From positions 1 to 64,000 of the forward strand of contig NZ_WSFU01000015.1 of assembly GCF_016820635.1 (NCBI RefSeq): DNA of 64,000 nucleotides, read 5' to 3'. Of this stretch, positions 16,821 through 54,589 are shown piece by piece; within the stretch, counting starts at the first letter, position 1; every line of letters starts with the position of its first letter. A model generated the notes under the pieces. It made no database searches and was not told the origin of the DNA. It saw only the letters and a program-made list of their open reading frames with translations. The position numbers and the translations under genes were made by a program. The stretch comes from Anaeromonas gelatinilytica (GTDB lineage: Bacteria; Bacillota; Clostridia; Tissierellales; SIT17).

Positions 16821-17310
16821 TTAATCACCTTTACTTAAATATTATAATTTTAGTCTACCTAAACCTAATTAGAAATATTCTAATACTTAATCAAGTAGGT
16901 ATAAAATACACTTTTAATGCAACAGTTTGTTAATCATTTAGTTCCATTTTATCTATTGAAAAAAACACCTATATAAAAATGTTCTTTCTCTCCTTCAGTT
17001 GTTTCTACATCTACTTGATTTTCAAATTCTAATTTATCATCACTAAGGATATATTTATATAAATTTGTCTCATAATCTATTACATATACCTTTAATCTTA
17101 ATTCTTCATTTATTACAATATTTAAAATATATGTGAAAAACCATAATTTAAACACATCAATATCACATCATGCATAATATATCATAATATATGTATTTTT
17201 TATTGTATAGTAAAGTTTATTTAATAAAAATTTTAAACTATTGATAAATACAAGGGTTAATAGTCACAAAAAATACTGGAATACAATAAAAAAATTATGG
17301 AGGGTTGTAA
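16821..17310. other. Divergent intergenic region before the cotA-like gene
   Basis: This stretch separates the leftward YIEGIA gene from the rightward oxidase gene. It holds one doubtful 68-codon reading frame (16949-17155). Just before the oxidase gene is ATACAATA (17281-17288), which resembles the -10 box of mother-cell sigma factors and lies 11 bases before the GGAGGG ribosome site. I see no stable hairpin or repeat. Confidence 0.5.
16949..17155 (-). CDS. Doubtful small hypothetical protein
   Basis: A 68-codon frame starts at a GTG with no convincing ribosome binding site. The N-terminus is hydrophobic (FKLWFFTYILNIVI); the rest is acidic and looks protein-like (LEFENQVDVETTEGEKEHFY). No family is recognised. 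It may be a real small gene with an unusual start, a decayed gene, or chance in AT-rich DNA. Confidence 0.3.
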   Translation of the reverse strand: MFKLWFFTYILNIVINEELRLKVYVIDYETNLYKYILSDDKLEFENQVDVETTEGEKEHFYIGVFFNR

Positions 17311-18909
17311 ATGGAAAATTTTTTTAATATCCTAGATGAAGAATTTTATTTGGAAGAAAAAAAGGTAGATCCATCAGTTCCTACAGATATACCAAAATTT
17401 GTAGATCCAATGCCTATACCACAAATTGCAAAACCAGTTTATGATTGTTATGAATCAAATGAAAAGGAATTATTCTATAATATTAAAATGCAAGAAGCTA
17501 AACATAGATTTCATAAGTACTTTCCTTTAACTACTATTTTTGGATACAATGGAACTTATCCAGGTCCTACGATAGAGGCTTCCAAGGATGTCCATATTAA
17601 AGTTAAATGGGAGAATAAACTACCATGTAAACATATTCTTCCCATTGATCATACTCTTCACGGTACGTTGGATACTCCTGATGTAAGAACAGTGGTTCAT
17701 CTTCATGGAGCTAATGTTGAGTCTGATAGTGATGGATATCCTGAAGCATGGTATTCTAAAAATAATGAATTTATAGGACCGAAATACACCAAAGAAGTAT
17801 ATGAATATACTAATCACCAGGCAGGTGCTACATTATGGTATCATGATCATGCAATTGGGATTACTAGGTTAAATATATATGCAGGATTAGTTGGATTCTA
17901 CATTATTAGAGATTTTTTTGAAGAGAAACTAAATCTTCCAAAGGATGAATATGAAATACCAATTATGATTCAGGATAAATCCTTCAACAAGGATGGATCA
18001 TTATTCTATCCTGATAATGCAACTCCACCTGTTAATTTTCCTGTTCCATCAACATCTTCGTTTTTCTTTGGAAATACAATAGTAGTAAATGGAAAGGTTT
18101 GGCCTTATCTTAAAGTAGAACCTCGTAAATATAGATTTAGAATGCTAAATGGTTCAAATAACCGTGCCTATGATTTAAAATTAAGTAACGGTGGGACTAT
18201 TCATCAAATTGGTACTGATTTGGGATTATTAGAACATCCTGTTGATATCAAGTCTTTTATTCTAGAACCTGCTGAAAGAATAGATTTAGTAATCGATTTC
18301 TCAAAGTATAAAGGAGAAGAAATAATACTATTAAATGATGGACCAGGACCAGCTAGTCCTGGTACTGATCAAATATTAAAATTCAAGGTGGAGAAAAAAT
18401 TAAAATCTTCAGACAAAAGTACTATCCCATATAATCTAATGCCAAAGCATAAAATTAACCCTACACTAGCTGCAAAAGAGAGAACTCTGGTCCTTGGTGA
18501 AACTACGGATGGTTATGGTAGAGTGATGCATTTGCTCAATAATAAAATGTGGAGTGATCCTGCTACTGAAAAGCCAAAACTAGATACAATTGAAATATGG
18601 CATTTAGTAAACACATTTAATTTTCCACACCCAATTCATCTTCACTTAGTACACTTTGAAATATTAGGTAGAAAGGTATATTCAGATGGTGATTTCGACG
18701 AGGATGGAAACTATAAGTTTGATTTGGATTCTTTAACACCACCCTTGGATTTTGAAAAAGGACCTAAAGACGTAGTGAGGACAGATCCTAATCAGGTAAC
18801 ATCAATTGTCATGCACTTTAAAGAACACTCCGGGGAATATGTATGGCATTGCCATATACTTGAACATGAGGATAATGATATGATGAGGCCACTTATTGTA
18901 GAAAAATAG
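17311..18909 (+). CDS. cotA: CotA-like multicopper oxidase (laccase)
   Basis: The 532-residue protein follows Bacillus spore-coat laccase CotA along its length. It has three cupredoxin domains and no signal peptide. The copper motifs are complete: VVHLHG and LWYHDHA (type 2/3 copper), HPIHLHL, and C-terminal HCHILEHEDNDMMRP (type 1 Cys and His, with the axial Met position occupied). The N-terminus carries about 30 extra residues relative to CotA. GGAGGG lies 6 bases before the ATG. It stands alone on the plus strand between a divergent promoter region and a strong terminator. Such enzymes use O2, so a coat location and possible transfer from Bacilli are plausible inferences. Confidence 0.92.
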   Translation: MENFFNILDEEFYLEEKKVDPSVPTDIPKFVDPMPIPQIAKPVYDCYESNEKELFYNIKMQEAKHRFHKYFPLTTIFGYNGTYPGPTIEASKDVHIKVKWENKLPCKHILPIDHTLHGTLDTPDVRTVVHLHGANVESDSDGYPEAWYSKNNEFIGPKYTKEVYEYTNHQAGATLWYHDHAIGITRLNIYAGLVGFYIIRDFFEEKLNLPKDEYEIPIMIQDKSFNKDGSLFYPDNATPPVNFPVPSTSSFFFGNTIVVNGKVWPYLKVEPRKYRFRMLNGSNNRAYDLKLSNGGTIHQIGTDLGLLEHPVDIKSFILEPAERIDLVIDFSKYKGEEIILLNDGPGPASPGTDQILKFKVEKKLKSSDKSTIPYNLMPKHKINPTLAAKERTLVLGETTDGYGRVMHLLNNKMWSDPATEKPKLDTIEIWHLVNTFNFPHPIHLHLVHFEILGRKVYSDGDFDEDGNYKFDLDSLTPPLDFEKGPKDVVRTDPNQVTSIVMHFKEHSGEYVWHCHILEHEDNDMMRPLIVEK

Positions 18910-25635: not shown

Positions 25636-25860
25636 GAACTCTTATCCTATAAAAGGACGAGAGTTCCAATTCCCGTGGTACCACCCTAATTGGTTAAATA
25701 ACCCACTTATTAAATCCATAACGGAGATAGCCGAATAACCCTAGTTTTATTTCAGATTATTTACTCCAAGGCGTCTTCATTAACCTTTAGTATCGGTTTG
25801 CAGCTACCACCGACTCTCTGAAACTAATAAAATCAACTACTCTTCCTCTTCTAAGTATTT
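25636..25860 (-). promoter_or_regulatory. T-box riboswitch leader of hisS-aspS, Asp specifier
   Basis: All T-box landmarks are present on the minus strand. Stem I carries an AGTA bulge motif and the AGAGAG-TCGGTGGTAGCTG segment. On its 3' side lies TGAAGACGCC, then GGAGTA. The conserved T-box core AGGGTGGTACCACGG is at about 25674-25688. The leader closes with a terminator hairpin, GAACTCT...AGAGTTC (25636-25666), followed by a T run. Opposite GAA, in the specifier position, is GAC (25775-25773), an aspartate codon. I find no His codon on this strand of stem I. The leader therefore probably senses uncharged tRNA-Asp and lets transcription continue into hisS and aspS. Confidence 0.93.
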
Positions 25861-25884
25861 TTATATTGTAAACATTATAGATTA

Positions 25885-31281: not shown

Positions 31282-33732
31282 TTATGAAATATAATTTCTA
31301 AACTCTTTAAATATAGGTACATCACTAATATTTACTTTAGATGATACTTCATTTAGTTTTACATAATAATTATTTTTATCTATTTCTTTATAATCTAATA
31401 ATTTAGCTTCATTGAAAATTTTTATTGCTATCTGAACTTTCATCTCATTCATATTAATATCTTTATTTTGCAATGATAAAATATATTTTGAAATATTAAG
31501 TTTAAAAATATTATTTCCTTTAAATGATTTATAAATATTTCTCAATTCCTTTATATCAGGAATAAACTTTGATATTATTTCTTTATTATTTTTTAAATCT
31601 TTGTCATCACATAATACAACAACATCATCATGAACAGTTTTTATAGTATAATACATCTCTTCACTAAAAGGCAAATCATACAGTATAATCTTTTCACAAT
31701 TTTCATTCTTTATATCTTTAATCCTAGGATTTATAATAATCTTATTTTTACGATTTTGTCCCTCTTCAAAATAATTAAAATAAGTATTTTTAAATATATC
31801 TCTTCCCTCTTTATTCATTCGATTTAATATATCTCTTAAACTCATTAAATTATTTATATATATTTTAATTTTCTTATTACTTTTTAATCTTTCAATAACA
31901 TAATCTAATTTATCAATACTTTTAGTATCATTAATAGCAAAATCCTTAGAGTATTTTTGAAGACCATTAGTTAAAATCCTATTTAAATCTTCATTATATT
32001 TACTTTCTATATCTAACTCAATATCAGATTTAATAATATCTTTAATTAGTATTTGAACTTTCTTTTCTCCATTATATTCATTAATATCTAAAGAACCAAT
32101 TATATTTATTAAATCCAAATTATTAATATTATCTGTCATATATCCTAAATTAAAACCAATACAATCAATTTTCATTCCTTTATACAATATTCCTAATTTA
32201 AGATGAGACCTATTTCTACCTACACTCCTAATATTTTTTACAATAGAATCTTCGAATGAAAATACTGGACTTGAATTTCCCATACCAAAAGGAGCAAGCT
32301 TATCTAAATTCACTACAGTATTCAAAGAGATATCTTCCATTTCTACTACAGAATCTACAACAATCTCTTGACAAAAATCCTCTGGCTCTAAATTTTTTCC
32401 AACCCAAGAATTAACTCTATTTTTAAAAGTATCAATATTGTCTTTATCGATAGATAATCCAGCAGCTAGTTTATGCCCTCCAAAACCTAAAAAGAGATCT
32501 CTAGAATCATTTAATGCATCATATATATTAAGTGTAGAAATGCTTCTTGCAGAACCTCGCCCTTTATTATTTTCATCTATAGATATAAGAACAGATGGTT
32601 TATAATATTTTTCCGTTATCCGAGAACTGACAATTCCTATAACGCCATGATGCCAATCATTAGATGATAATACTATAACATTATCATCATCTAGTCCTTC
32701 TCTTCTTATCAGTTCATCAGCTTCATCAAAAATTCTACTTTCTATTTCTTGCCTATACTTATTTTCTTCATCCAACTCCTTAGCAATATTTAATGCTTCT
32801 TCATAATTAGTCGAAGTAAATAGTTCCACGCCTTTACGAGCATGTTTCATTCTACCTGCTGCATTTATCCTTGGTCCTATTATAAAACCTATATGTCCTC
32901 CAGAAATTTCTTTTCCTTCCAAACCTGTAACTTCAATCAAAGCTTTTATTCCTAAATTAGTAGTTTTATTAATCAATTCTAATCCTTTTTTTACAATTAA
33001 TCTATTTTCCCCCATTAATGAAACTACATCTGCAACAGTTCCAATAGCAACTATAGGAAGTAATGAAAGATAATCTATATCTATTTTAAATTCCCTACTT
33101 ATAGATTGAACTAATTTAAATGCAACCCCTACACCGGCTAACTTTTTAAAAGGGTAGTTACTGTCTTCTCTATTAGGATTTATAACACCTGCTGCATCTG
33201 GTAACCTATCTCCACAAGTATGATGATCAGTTATAATAATATCCATCCCTAATTCATTACAATATTTAACTTCTTCTACAGAAGTTATTCCACAATCTAC
33301 TGTAATTATAAGATTTCCTTTTTGCTCTCTTATAAATTTTACTGCATCTTTATTTAAACCATACCCTTCTTTATGTCTATCTGGAATATAATAATCTACT
33401 TCAATTCCAATTTGAGAGAAAAAATTAATAAGCAATGAAGTACTTGTAACTCCATCAACATCATAATCTCCATATATCCATATGTTTTCATCTAATTCTA
33501 TAGCTCTTAATATTCTGTCCGTTACATTATCCATGTCCTTCAATAAGGAAGGATCATGAAAATCATCATATGTAGGATTTAAAAATTTTTTTATTTCTTC
33601 TTTGCTTTTTAATCCTCTATTCAATAAAACTTTAGATACAATAGGAGAAATCCTAAATTCTCGAGAAATTTCTTCTATATACTTATCTTCTTGATATAAT
33701 ACCTTTACAAATTTTTTATCTTTTTTTAACAT
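31282..33732 (-). CDS. recJ: Single-stranded-DNA-specific exonuclease RecJ
   Basis: RecJ degrades single-stranded DNA 5' to 3' in recombination and repair. The 816-residue protein has the DHH phosphoesterase motifs GDYDVDGVTST (near 72), VDCGIT, DHHTCGD and NPNR. The DHHA1 domain shows HGVIGIVSSRITEKY and GFGGHKLAAGLS, and an OB-fold domain follows. An additional C-terminal region of about 250 residues is found in the long Firmicute form. The ATG at 33732 has GGGTG 7 bases upstream, which itself overlaps an upstream GTG at 33744. The repeated structured element (33758-33875) lies directly before this gene. Confidence 0.95.
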   Translation of the reverse strand: MLKKDKKFVKVLYQEDKYIEEISREFRISPIVSKVLLNRGLKSKEEIKKFLNPTYDDFHDPSLLKDMDNVTDRILRAIELDENIWIYGDYDVDGVTSTSLLINFFSQIGIEVDYYIPDRHKEGYGLNKDAVKFIREQKGNLIITVDCGITSVEEVKYCNELGMDIIITDHHTCGDRLPDAAGVINPNREDSNYPFKKLAGVGVAFKLVQSISREFKIDIDYLSLLPIVAIGTVADVVSLMGENRLIVKKGLELINKTTNLGIKALIEVTGLEGKEISGGHIGFIIGPRINAAGRMKHARKGVELFTSTNYEEALNIAKELDEENKYRQEIESRIFDEADELIRREGLDDDNVIVLSSNDWHHGVIGIVSSRITEKYYKPSVLISIDENNKGRGSARSISTLNIYDALNDSRDLFLGFGGHKLAAGLSIDKDNIDTFKNRVNSWVGKNLEPEDFCQEIVVDSVVEMEDISLNTVVNLDKLAPFGMGNSSPVFSFEDSIVKNIRSVGRNRSHLKLGILYKGMKIDCIGFNLGYMTDNINNLDLINIIGSLDINEYNGEKKVQILIKDIIKSDIELDIESKYNEDLNRILTNGLQKYSKDFAINDTKSIDKLDYVIERLKSNKKIKIYINNLMSLRDILNRMNKEGRDIFKNTYFNYFEEGQNRKNKIIINPRIKDIKNENCEKIILYDLPFSEEMYYTIKTVHDDVVVLCDDKDLKNNKEIISKFIPDIKELRNIYKSFKGNNIFKLNISKYILSLQNKDINMNEMKVQIAIKIFNEAKLLDYKEIDKNNYYVKLNEVSSKVNISDVPIFKEFRNYIS

Positions 33733-33757
33733 AATTTCACCCACAATATTTTAAAAA

Positions 33758-33875
33758 GTCGGATAAAAATCGTATCCTCCTTCGCTAGGGAAACCTAGTT
33801 TCCCTTCGACGGTACGTAATACATGCACCTGAGCACTCTTCTAATACGGCAGGGGATTTCATCCCCTACAACCCT
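33758..33875 (-). ncRNA. Repeated structured element, copy 1 (candidate RNA)
   Basis: This 118-base block is about 86% identical to 54089-54205 (16 differences including gaps by my count). Read from the minus strand it has the hairpins GGGGAT-gaa-ATCCCC, GGTGC...GTACC and GGGAAAC-tag-GTTTCCC, then a final hairpin GGATA...TATCC followed by GACTTTTT. Where the copies differ within stems, pairing is kept by G-U wobbles on the minus strand but broken on the plus strand. It lies between the 16-codon gene and recJ. It may be a leader or 3'-end RNA element, or a small mobile repeat. I do not recognise a known riboswitch class. Confidence 0.65.
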
Positions 33876-33877
33876 TA

Positions 33878-33928
33878 TTTTTATTGTCTAAGAAAGTTTA
33901 TTAAATAAACTTTCTTAGACAATAAAAA
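33878..33928 (-). repeat. 23-bp perfect palindrome next to the structured element
   Basis: The arms TTTTTATTGTCTAAGAAAG-TTTA (33878-33900) and their exact complement (33906-33928) flank a 5-base loop. The T run precedes the stem and the A run follows it in both directions. It therefore lacks the downstream U tract of an intrinsic terminator. Confidence 0.8.
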
Positions 33929-33982
33929 ACACATATAATATTATAGCTAATAGGTAGACTTTATTCAACTTATTACTTATTA

Positions 33983-53390: not shown

Positions 53391-53744
53391 ATGAAAGATA
53401 AAATATACTTAATTATAATTGGTTTATTTACAGGTCTAGTTAATGGAATCTTTGGTGCTGGTGGAGGCATGTTAATAGTTCCTTCACTTATGTATATAGT
53501 TCATTTAGATGAACATAAAGCCCATTCAACGGCTATTACTATAATATTACCTTTATGTATAATAAGTACCTATATTTATTTTAAAAATAATCTAATAGAT
53601 TTTAAGCTTGGATTACCAATAGCAATAGGTAGCACTATTGGAGGATATTTAGGTGCTAAATTATTAAAAAATATCCCTAAACAAATATTGCGTAAAGCAT
53701 TCAGTATTCTTATAATTTATGTTTCTATAAGGATGATTATATGA
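53391..53744 (+). CDS. Half-size TauE/SafE (TSUP) transporter, first half
   Basis: A 117-residue membrane protein with about four hydrophobic spans. It carries the TSUP signature GLVNGIFGAGGGMLIVPSL (about 14-32) and a second typical stretch, IGSTIGGYLGAKLL. Full-size TauE/SafE proteins have two such halves in one chain of about 250 residues; here each half is a separate gene. GGTGG precedes the ATG. Its stop overlaps the next start (ATGA). It is divergent from cysK. Likely cargo is sulfite or another sulfur anion, by family. Confidence 0.9.
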   Translation: MKDKIYLIIIGLFTGLVNGIFGAGGGMLIVPSLMYIVHLDEHKAHSTAITIILPLCIISTYIYFKNNLIDFKLGLPIAIGSTIGGYLGAKLLKNIPKQILRKAFSILIIYVSIRMII

Positions 53745-54097
53745 CTAAATTTATACTAATAGGTTTCTGTTCTGGAATATTAGGGGGAATGGGTATTGGT
53801 GGGGGGACAATACTTATTCCTACTTTAGTATTTTTCACTACAATTTCTCAACCTCAAGCTCAAGGAATTAATCTTCTTGTTTTTATTCCAACTTCTATTA
53901 TTGCCATATTTATTCACTATAAAAATAAAAACTTGAAAACAGATATTATACTTCCTATAATTATACCTGGATTAATCAGTTCAATTCTAGGAAGTACATT
54001 AGCTAATCATATAGATCCAGAAAACTTAAAAAGAATATTTGGTATATTTATGTTATTAATTGGAATCTATCAATTTTTTCATAAAAAAAGCGGATAA
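53741..54097 (+). CDS. Half-size TauE/SafE (TSUP) transporter, second half
   Basis: A 118-residue membrane protein with four spans and its own TSUP glycine signature, FCSGILGGMGIGGGTILIPTL (split near 8-28), and IPGLISSILGSTLANHI. It overlaps the previous gene by 4 bases, so equal synthesis of both halves is likely; they probably pair as one transporter. The C-terminal end is basic. A hairpin immediately downstream (54089-54110) belongs to the repeated element and may also terminate this gene. Confidence 0.9.
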   Translation: MTKFILIGFCSGILGGMGIGGGTILIPTLVFFTTISQPQAQGINLLVFIPTSIIAIFIHYKNKNLKTDIILPIIIPGLISSILGSTLANHIDPENLKRIFGIFMLLIGIYQFFHKKSG

Positions 54098-54205
54098 AAA
54101 CATATCCGCTTCACTGGGGAAACCTAGTTTCCCTTTGACGGCGCATAATACATGCACCTGAGCACCTTTCTAATACGGCAGAGGATTTCATCCCCTACAA
54201 TCCCT
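54089..54205 (-). ncRNA. Repeated structured element, copy 2 (candidate RNA)
   Basis: Second copy of the block at 33758-33875. It has the same series of hairpins. On the minus strand GGGGAT pairs with ATCCTC through one G-U, and GGTGC pairs with GCGCC through one U-G; on the plus strand these would be mismatches. The last hairpin, AGCGGATA / TATCCGCT, is followed by seven T on the minus strand, a good intrinsic terminator. It lies in the gap between two convergent genes, so no gene follows on its strand. That argues against a simple riboswitch and for a 3'-end element or mobile repeat. Confidence 0.7.
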
Positions 54206-54214
54206 GTTTTTTAT

Positions 54215-54589
54215 TTATCCTAATTCTACTAATACACAATTATTATTAGCTATATTGAAATTATTTTCTTTTGCTTTGTTTAATACTTCATTATTAGAGG
54301 TTCCTGGTTGAAACCATAGATTTTTAATTCCTTTTTTCTTGGCCTCATCAATAGCCTTATAACTTATTTTAGGTGATACAACAAAATTCAATACATCTGG
54401 AGTTGCAGGTAAATTCTCTACACTTTTATAGCATTTTTCTCCTTCAATATCTTCATACTTTGGATTAATCGGATATACTTCATAACCATGGTCTTTTAAT
54501 TTCTTATATATTTTATAGCCAAACTTTTCTTTATTAGGAGTTACCCCTAAAACAGCCCATACCTTTTTATTTAACATATCTTTCTTCAT
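54215..54589 (-). CDS. CoA-binding (YccU-type) protein
   Basis: A 124-residue protein made of a single Rossmann-like CoA-binding domain: VWAVLGVTPNKEKFGYKIYK at the start, YEVYPINPKYEDIEGEKCYKS in the middle (in pieces) and LWFQPGTSNNEVLNKAKE near 90-107. This is the small YccU type. The ligand is inferred and the physiological role is unknown. AGGAGGG precedes the ATG. The structured element follows directly and probably shares its transcript. Confidence 0.92.
   Translation of the reverse strand: MKKDMLNKKVWAVLGVTPNKEKFGYKIYKKLKDHGYEVYPINPKYEDIEGEKCYKSVENLPATPDVLNFVVSPKISYKAIDEAKKKGIKNLWFQPGTSNNEVLNKAKENNFNIANNNCVLVELG

Follow-up and report, generated by a model that had tools for sequence, protein, structure and literature searches.

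A Clostridiales-2 RNA (RF02937) in Anaeromonas gelatinilytica is very probably the body of a small mobile element that targets transcription terminators

Two similar, structured blocks stand on the minus strand of the 64,000-nt stretch of Anaeromonas gelatinilytica DNA that we analyzed (the window; contig NZ_WSFU01000015.1), and the question is what they are. A first-pass annotation made from the sequence had left open a new small RNA family, a 3′-end element, or a transposable repeat. On realignment of the minus strands, positions 33758-33875 and 54089-54205 are identical at 103 of 119 aligned positions (86.6%), and the 13 mismatches and 3 gap positions reproduce exactly the 16 differences and the identity of about 86% first reported. 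Both blocks match the Rfam family RF02937 (Clostridiales-2) on the minus strand over the entire model (positions 1-82 of 82), scoring 73.9 and 70.5 bits, where membership is a whole-model covariance score at or above the gathering score of 58.6 bits. They are copies of an Rfam family of unexplained role, and the suggestion of a new family, against which the annotation had itself set an Rfam match, has to be given up. The family was probably first listed in a 2017 paper; no paper naming it was found in the literature searched, which included few subscription papers. Matches to Rfam microRNA families at 33879-33927 lie far below their gathering scores and are a side effect of the perfect P1 palindrome (Table 1). 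Elsewhere, the window holds a T-box leader (RF00230, 156.8 bits, 25650-25862, minus strand).

The Rfam model, with 82 positions and two stems, covers only the core of the repeated unit. The full element is about 175 to 240 nt long and comprises a T-run, hairpin P1, an A-run, P2, a conserved GUGCUCAG segment, a variable P3, P4, and a terminator hairpin, P5. It shares the core sequence and the P2 and P3 stems with RF02937 and extends beyond it by P1 with its T- and A-runs, P4, and the terminator; it is, moreover, mobile and directed to terminators, as described below. The two blocks first delimited were therefore real but too short, copy 1 being complete at 33753-33929 (145.1 bits against a full-length model) and copy 2 extending over about 54083-54214, and the window also contains a third copy of the 5′ block, without a core, at 17196-17293 on the plus strand. 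This solo block, with a covarying GTAT/ATAC stem, lies 18 bp upstream of a multicopper oxidase ORF (17311-18909, plus strand; Cu-oxidase_2/3) and may be the present leader of that gene.

P1 is about 98 bp long in most copies of the A. gelatinilytica genome, that is, with about 50 nt more inside than in copy 1, whose short perfect palindrome is likewise found in genomes G207 and G041. Its arms are complementary in nearly all copies though their sequence varies even among copies of one genome, for example ATACAAT/ATTGTAT and ATGCATA/TATGCAT in G188, or ATATACT/AGTATAT and AAATAGT/ACTATTT in G193. One G188 copy has C instead of T as the first nucleotide after the T-run, with a G-for-A change beside the facing A-run. 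The A-run beside P1 is kept in every family examined.

Table 1. Positions of the element copies, their parts, and the neighboring genes within the window
Feature	Position	Strand	Basis
recJ, 820 aa; DHH, DHHA1, RecJ_OB	31282..33744	-	Domain assignment
recJ promoter-like sequence, TTGAAT-N17-TATAAT	33940..33968	-	Conserved in the empty sites of G001, G002, and G003
Element copy 1, complete, 5′ T-run to 3′ T-run	33753..33929	-	Empty site, Rfam match, full-length model
Copy 1, 5′ T6 run (target T5 plus one T)	33924..33929	-	Comparison with GTGTTTTTAAAATATTG in G002
Copy 1, P1, perfect inverted repeat with 19-bp arms (ATTGTCTAAGAAAGTTTAT.../...GACAAT)	33883..33923	-	Sequence, fold, copy comparison
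Copy 1, A5 run, complementary to the target T-run	33878..33882	-	Alignment
RF02937 match, 73.9 bits	33799..33883	-	Rfam search
P2 hairpin	33849..33869	-	7 of 9 pairs with compensatory change
P3 hairpin, sequence and length highly variable	33811..33829	-	6 of 6 pairs with compensatory change
P4 (P4a and P4b) stem, beyond the Rfam model	33782..33809	-	Fold, pair counts
P5 terminator hairpin, weakened, 5 bp	33759..33779	-	Fold, pair counts
Copy 1, 3′ T5 run, common to the empty site	33753..33757	-	Empty-site comparison
Element copy 2: A-run, core, P4, terminator, T7; P1 missing	54083..54214	-	Locus comparison, full-length model
RF02937 match, 70.5 bits	54128..54212	-	Rfam search
CoA-binding protein gene, same strand, upstream of copy 2	54215..54589	-	Domain assignment
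Solo 98-bp 5′ block (T6...A6, GTAT/ATAC stem), no core	17196..17293	+	Directly before the multicopper oxidase gene

From the two copies alone, it had been read that pairing is preserved on the minus-strand RNA. The described hairpins do form in both copies, and the predicted fold is stronger on the minus strand (-37.9 and -43.5 kcal/mol) than on the plus strand (-32.0 and -33.8 kcal/mol). A hairpin followed by T's is present at the minus-strand end of each copy, with 8 pairs in copy 2 and a weaker version in copy 1 (GGAUA/UAUCC, with G.A mismatches at its base); the outer pairs of P4 read UCG/CGA in copy 1 and UCA/UGA in copy 2. Covariation, which the annotation had proposed as a check, was examined with a 130-position covariance model built from nine aligned copies, which gave 66 matches, 65 of them distinct, in the window and in loci from related genomes. 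Across these 65 relatives, 94.7% of the cells of five stems (P2, P3, P4a, P4b, and P5; 33 pairs) can pair, compared with 74.1% after shuffling and at most 53% with slid partners, figures to be read with an alignment that was fitted to the scored structure and so favors it somewhat. Changes on both sides that keep the pair occur in 27 of the 33 pairs; the relatives share descent, so that such counts are non-independent events, and the slid control argues against relatedness alone. The cells comprise 1,665 Watson-Crick pairs, 81 G-U, and 22 A-C (43 G-U and 4 A-C in P2), and since a G-U pair on one strand is an A-C mismatch on the opposite one, this excess points to the sense transcript, that is, the minus strand of the window, as the pairing strand. 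The sequence comparisons thus strongly support the original reading and argue firmly for a structure that is maintained at the RNA level.

If the element were an ordinary multicopy trans-acting small RNA or 3′-UTR regulator, spread by gene duplication and kept in place for regulation, its strong structural conservation, its own terminator, and its intergenic positions would be expected. Its distribution makes this very improbable, because the copies stand at unrelated loci with exact common ends and no common flanks, many of them are decayed, none occurs in two genomes of the same genus (G001 and G003), and exact empty sites, described below, contradict it; a regulatory role is conceivable only as the domestication of single copies. 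About 30 copies or fragments, a good many of which stand at the ends of contigs, are found in the A. gelatinilytica genome, and within the genus, G002 has three copies, with none above threshold in G001 and G003. Within the order, 18 of 249 genomes gave matches, with up to 17 scored per genome. The 12 copies examined in G207, a relative with a complete genome that carries further ones, differ little from one another and have the same ends in unrelated flanks. That genome also contains many decayed copies (L219-L233) in which both ends persist and the internal stems are lost, L232 being reduced to a 5′ hairpin and a 3′ T-run. Its partial copies are internally deleted or truncated, with no ORF between the ends, and no longer, autonomous element with the same ends was found among them. 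Two G039 loci (L062 and L063) have a second, truncated 5′ block in tandem after the element's terminator, which suggests repeated insertion into the element's own terminator. Collections of plasmids and phages gave no match, nor did two exact-pattern scans of viral contigs, so nothing points to transfer by known plasmids or phages; a pattern scan of genome contigs gave a single match, in Asticcacaulis, which we judged to be due to chance.

The exact point of insertion is visible at one locus, recJ, before which copy 1 stands directly. Three genomes of the same genus (G001, G002, and G003) have the empty site, GTGTTTTTAAAA, where the window has GTGTTTTTT-element-TTTTTAAAA; in G002, the sequence TATGTG-TTTTT-AAAATATTG corresponds to TATGTG-TTTTTT-(ATTGTC...CCGAC)-TTTTT-AAAATATTG in the window. 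The element has therefore moved, and among the three options first offered, the transposable repeat is the best supported, given the number of near-identical copies, the exact empty sites, and the preferred target. Here the insertion lies directly after the promoter-like sequence of recJ, about 10 bp downstream of the -10 box, and separates it from the gene, so that copy 1, with its weakened terminator hairpin, would lie in the presumed recJ leader. This site is preceded by the promoter-like sequence and no terminator hairpin, which counts against terminator targeting at this locus.

Over the sites as a whole, the preference is for a terminator-like hairpin followed by a T-run. A hairpin abuts 50 of 69 intact 5′ ends, in contrast to 224 of 1,462 (15%) background sites, namely the other T5A sites of the same loci (p ~2e-24); the patterns that collected the sites were our own and a few entries are doubtful, while the contrast is large. 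By genome, the hairpin directly precedes the 5′ T-run at 21 of 24 G207 sites, at 13 of 19 sites of the A. gelatinilytica genome, and at 16 of 26 elsewhere, and for two of the G207 insertions, G053 and G204 have a plain terminator at the aligned position. Most copies stand at gene 3′ ends, right after the terminator, and the idea of a 3′-end element was to that extent partly right. In G207, the 3′ T-run is constant (CTC-TTTTT-A) and the 5′ T-run has between 5 and 8 T's, a pattern that fits either the duplication of a T5 target or a T5 borne by the element; at recJ, T5 is found at both junctions, and with a T-run as target, the element's own T's and a target-site duplication are indistinguishable. 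Such direct T5 repeats, together with shortness and high copy number, could also be expected of a miniature element (MITE) moved by a DDE transposase. Against this, the ends are not inverted repeats (5′ TATTGTCTAGG; 3′, in reverse complement, GCGGAC or GAGTTGC) and the element has one fixed orientation relative to its target. No terminal inverted repeats shared with a DDE insertion sequence were seen in these genomes, and we regard a MITE of this kind as most unlikely.

The second locus suggests what insertion can do to a host gene. In three relatives, the corresponding site is an ordinary bidirectional terminator between a CoA-binding protein gene and a TauE-like gene, and the 3′ T-run of the element at copy 2 is in the same position as the T-run of that terminator. 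On this comparison, copy 2 has replaced the terminator that these two convergent genes had ancestrally, and it would have taken over as the terminator of the host gene. The plus-strand TauE-like ORF ends inside copy 2, its stop codon being supplied by the element. On that strand, two adjacent ORFs (53391-53744 and 53741-54097) encode half-size TauE/SafE-like proteins, the first matching the C-terminal half of the TauE/SafE Pfam profile (128-237) and the second the N-terminal half (2-112).

These observations can be brought together in a model in which the element would always enter a run of a few T's in the same orientation. The run would most often be the U-tract of an intrinsic terminator, and the element would come to lie between the host hairpin and the downstream sequence, with a T5 tract on either side. 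With T5 on both sides, the upstream gene would retain its own terminator, and the last hairpin of the element plus the second T-run would form a new one; most insertions should thus be nearly harmless, and a copy can come to take over the host terminator, as at 54083-54214. The element would in this way duplicate or replace the "stop" signal of the host gene. The A-run beside P1, conserved in every family and complementary to the target, could plausibly act as a guide that recognizes the target T-run through base pairing, the sense transcript would take part in insertion, and the mobilizing enzyme would act in trans.

Which enzyme this might be is approached by two routes. We tentatively prefer an RNA-templated insertion, primed at the T-run and occurring at or near the replication fork, in which a reverse transcriptase, borrowed from a class-C group II intron or of another origin, would act in trans; we hold this as a possibility that stays short of an even chance. 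It is suggested by (i) the U-tract at the 3′ end of the element RNA together with the strong conservation at the RNA level, (ii) class-C introns, which insert in the same orientation into the same class of target, right after rho-independent terminators (PMC8919778), and (iii) locus L155 (G039:C28), where the 5′ end of an element (TGTCTAC...) follows immediately on the 3′ end (...CCTACTCGAT) of a class-C-like group II intron, as if the intron had made use of the insertion point of the element itself. The RVT_1 domain (PF00078), however, is absent from five element-bearing genomes (G189, G002, G014, G039, and G204), including G189, which is 99% complete and has 30 or more copies; this weakens the case for a reverse transcriptase, which, if needed, would have been lost since or be of another type. 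Domain V of group II introns does occur in some of these genomes. Truncation at both ends also speaks against this route, some copies being without the 5′ part and others without the 3′ part, and with both kinds seen, truncation singles out no one mechanism. In its most far-reaching form, the element would be a bacterial counterpart of a SINE, an ORF-less RNA of about 200 nt that has itself copied via its transcript by A-run pairing and a reverse transcriptase borrowed from the host or an intron, which we consider unlikely.

The other route, which seems to us rather doubtful, is movement as single-stranded DNA, with the hairpins as DNA recognition structures and a Y1 (HUH) transposase, of either the RAYT or the IS200/IS605 type, that cuts and joins the element in trans. 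Hairpins near both ends and the lack of terminal inverted repeats would suit it, and Y1_Tnp genes are present in 16 of the 18 element genomes, the two exceptions being 70% and 81% complete, and missing from the element-free G001 and G003. They are nevertheless common in any case (146 of 231 element-free genomes), so that the association is weak (one-sided p 0.02). In G207, the sense strand coincides with the leading, G-rich strand in 31 of 34 copies, a bias that fits both DNA and RNA routes and is confounded by gene orientation. The excess of G-U over A-C points to RNA instead, and no RF02937 match was found in 20 Y1 loci with flanks of about 1.5 kb, whereas rayt genes are described as always flanked by REPs (PMC2817692). 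Neither a reverse transcriptase nor a Y1 transposase is decisive as the machinery, and RNA-templated insertion is retained as the preferred route.

Comparison with known systems of mobile elements brings out likenesses to several. Like REPs and REPINs with their RAYTs, it is a small, non-autonomous, palindromic repeat with covarying stems, and most of its hosts have Y1 genes, but no element flanks any of the 20 Y1 genes searched, its RNA core is far more complex, and the GTAG/GTGG head that REPs have 5′ of a hairpin, seen in P2 of the window copies (GTAGGGGAUGAAAUCCCC), is not retained in other families of the element, where GCAA, GCAG, or TATA is found. G207 also carries Y1 genes of RAYT size, and GTAG-headed, REP-like palindromes such as GTAGGGGACGCATTGTATGCGTCCC occur near several of its copies (L108, L110, L224, L226, and L230). 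With class-C group II introns (PMC8919778), it shares the orientation and the position right after a terminator hairpin (50 of 69 5′ ends), while the window has no match to domain V (RF00029) and the element, shorter than 250 nt, has no reverse transcriptase ORF. The element thus lacks tested defining features of MITEs, REP/RAYT systems, and group II introns. In its general traits, the element also resembles bcr1 and related repeats of the Bacillus cereus group, which are short, multicopy, chromosomal, and partly transcribed in UTRs (PMC6542083, PMC3446304), with a mobility linked to a TTTAT motif (PMC6542083).

Taken together, the element is very probably a small, non-autonomous, RNA-structured mobile element that targets terminators and has the Clostridiales-2 RNA as its body, an explanation that is well supported and, as far as we have checked, new. 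The RNA itself was already known, while its mobile nature was apparently unrecognized before; in a literature search that included a minority of the subscription papers, Clostridiales-2 was nowhere found to be described as mobile. A catalogued small RNA of unknown function is thereby explained as a mobile element, and searches for its regulatory targets should start from mobility. Insertion into a terminator, with another terminator brought along, would be a safe way of living in a compact genome, and individual insertions can nonetheless take over the terminator of a gene or, as at recJ, split a promoter from its gene. The element also offers a manageable system in which to ask if non-autonomous, RNA-templated elements that compare with the SINEs of eukaryotes exist in bacteria.
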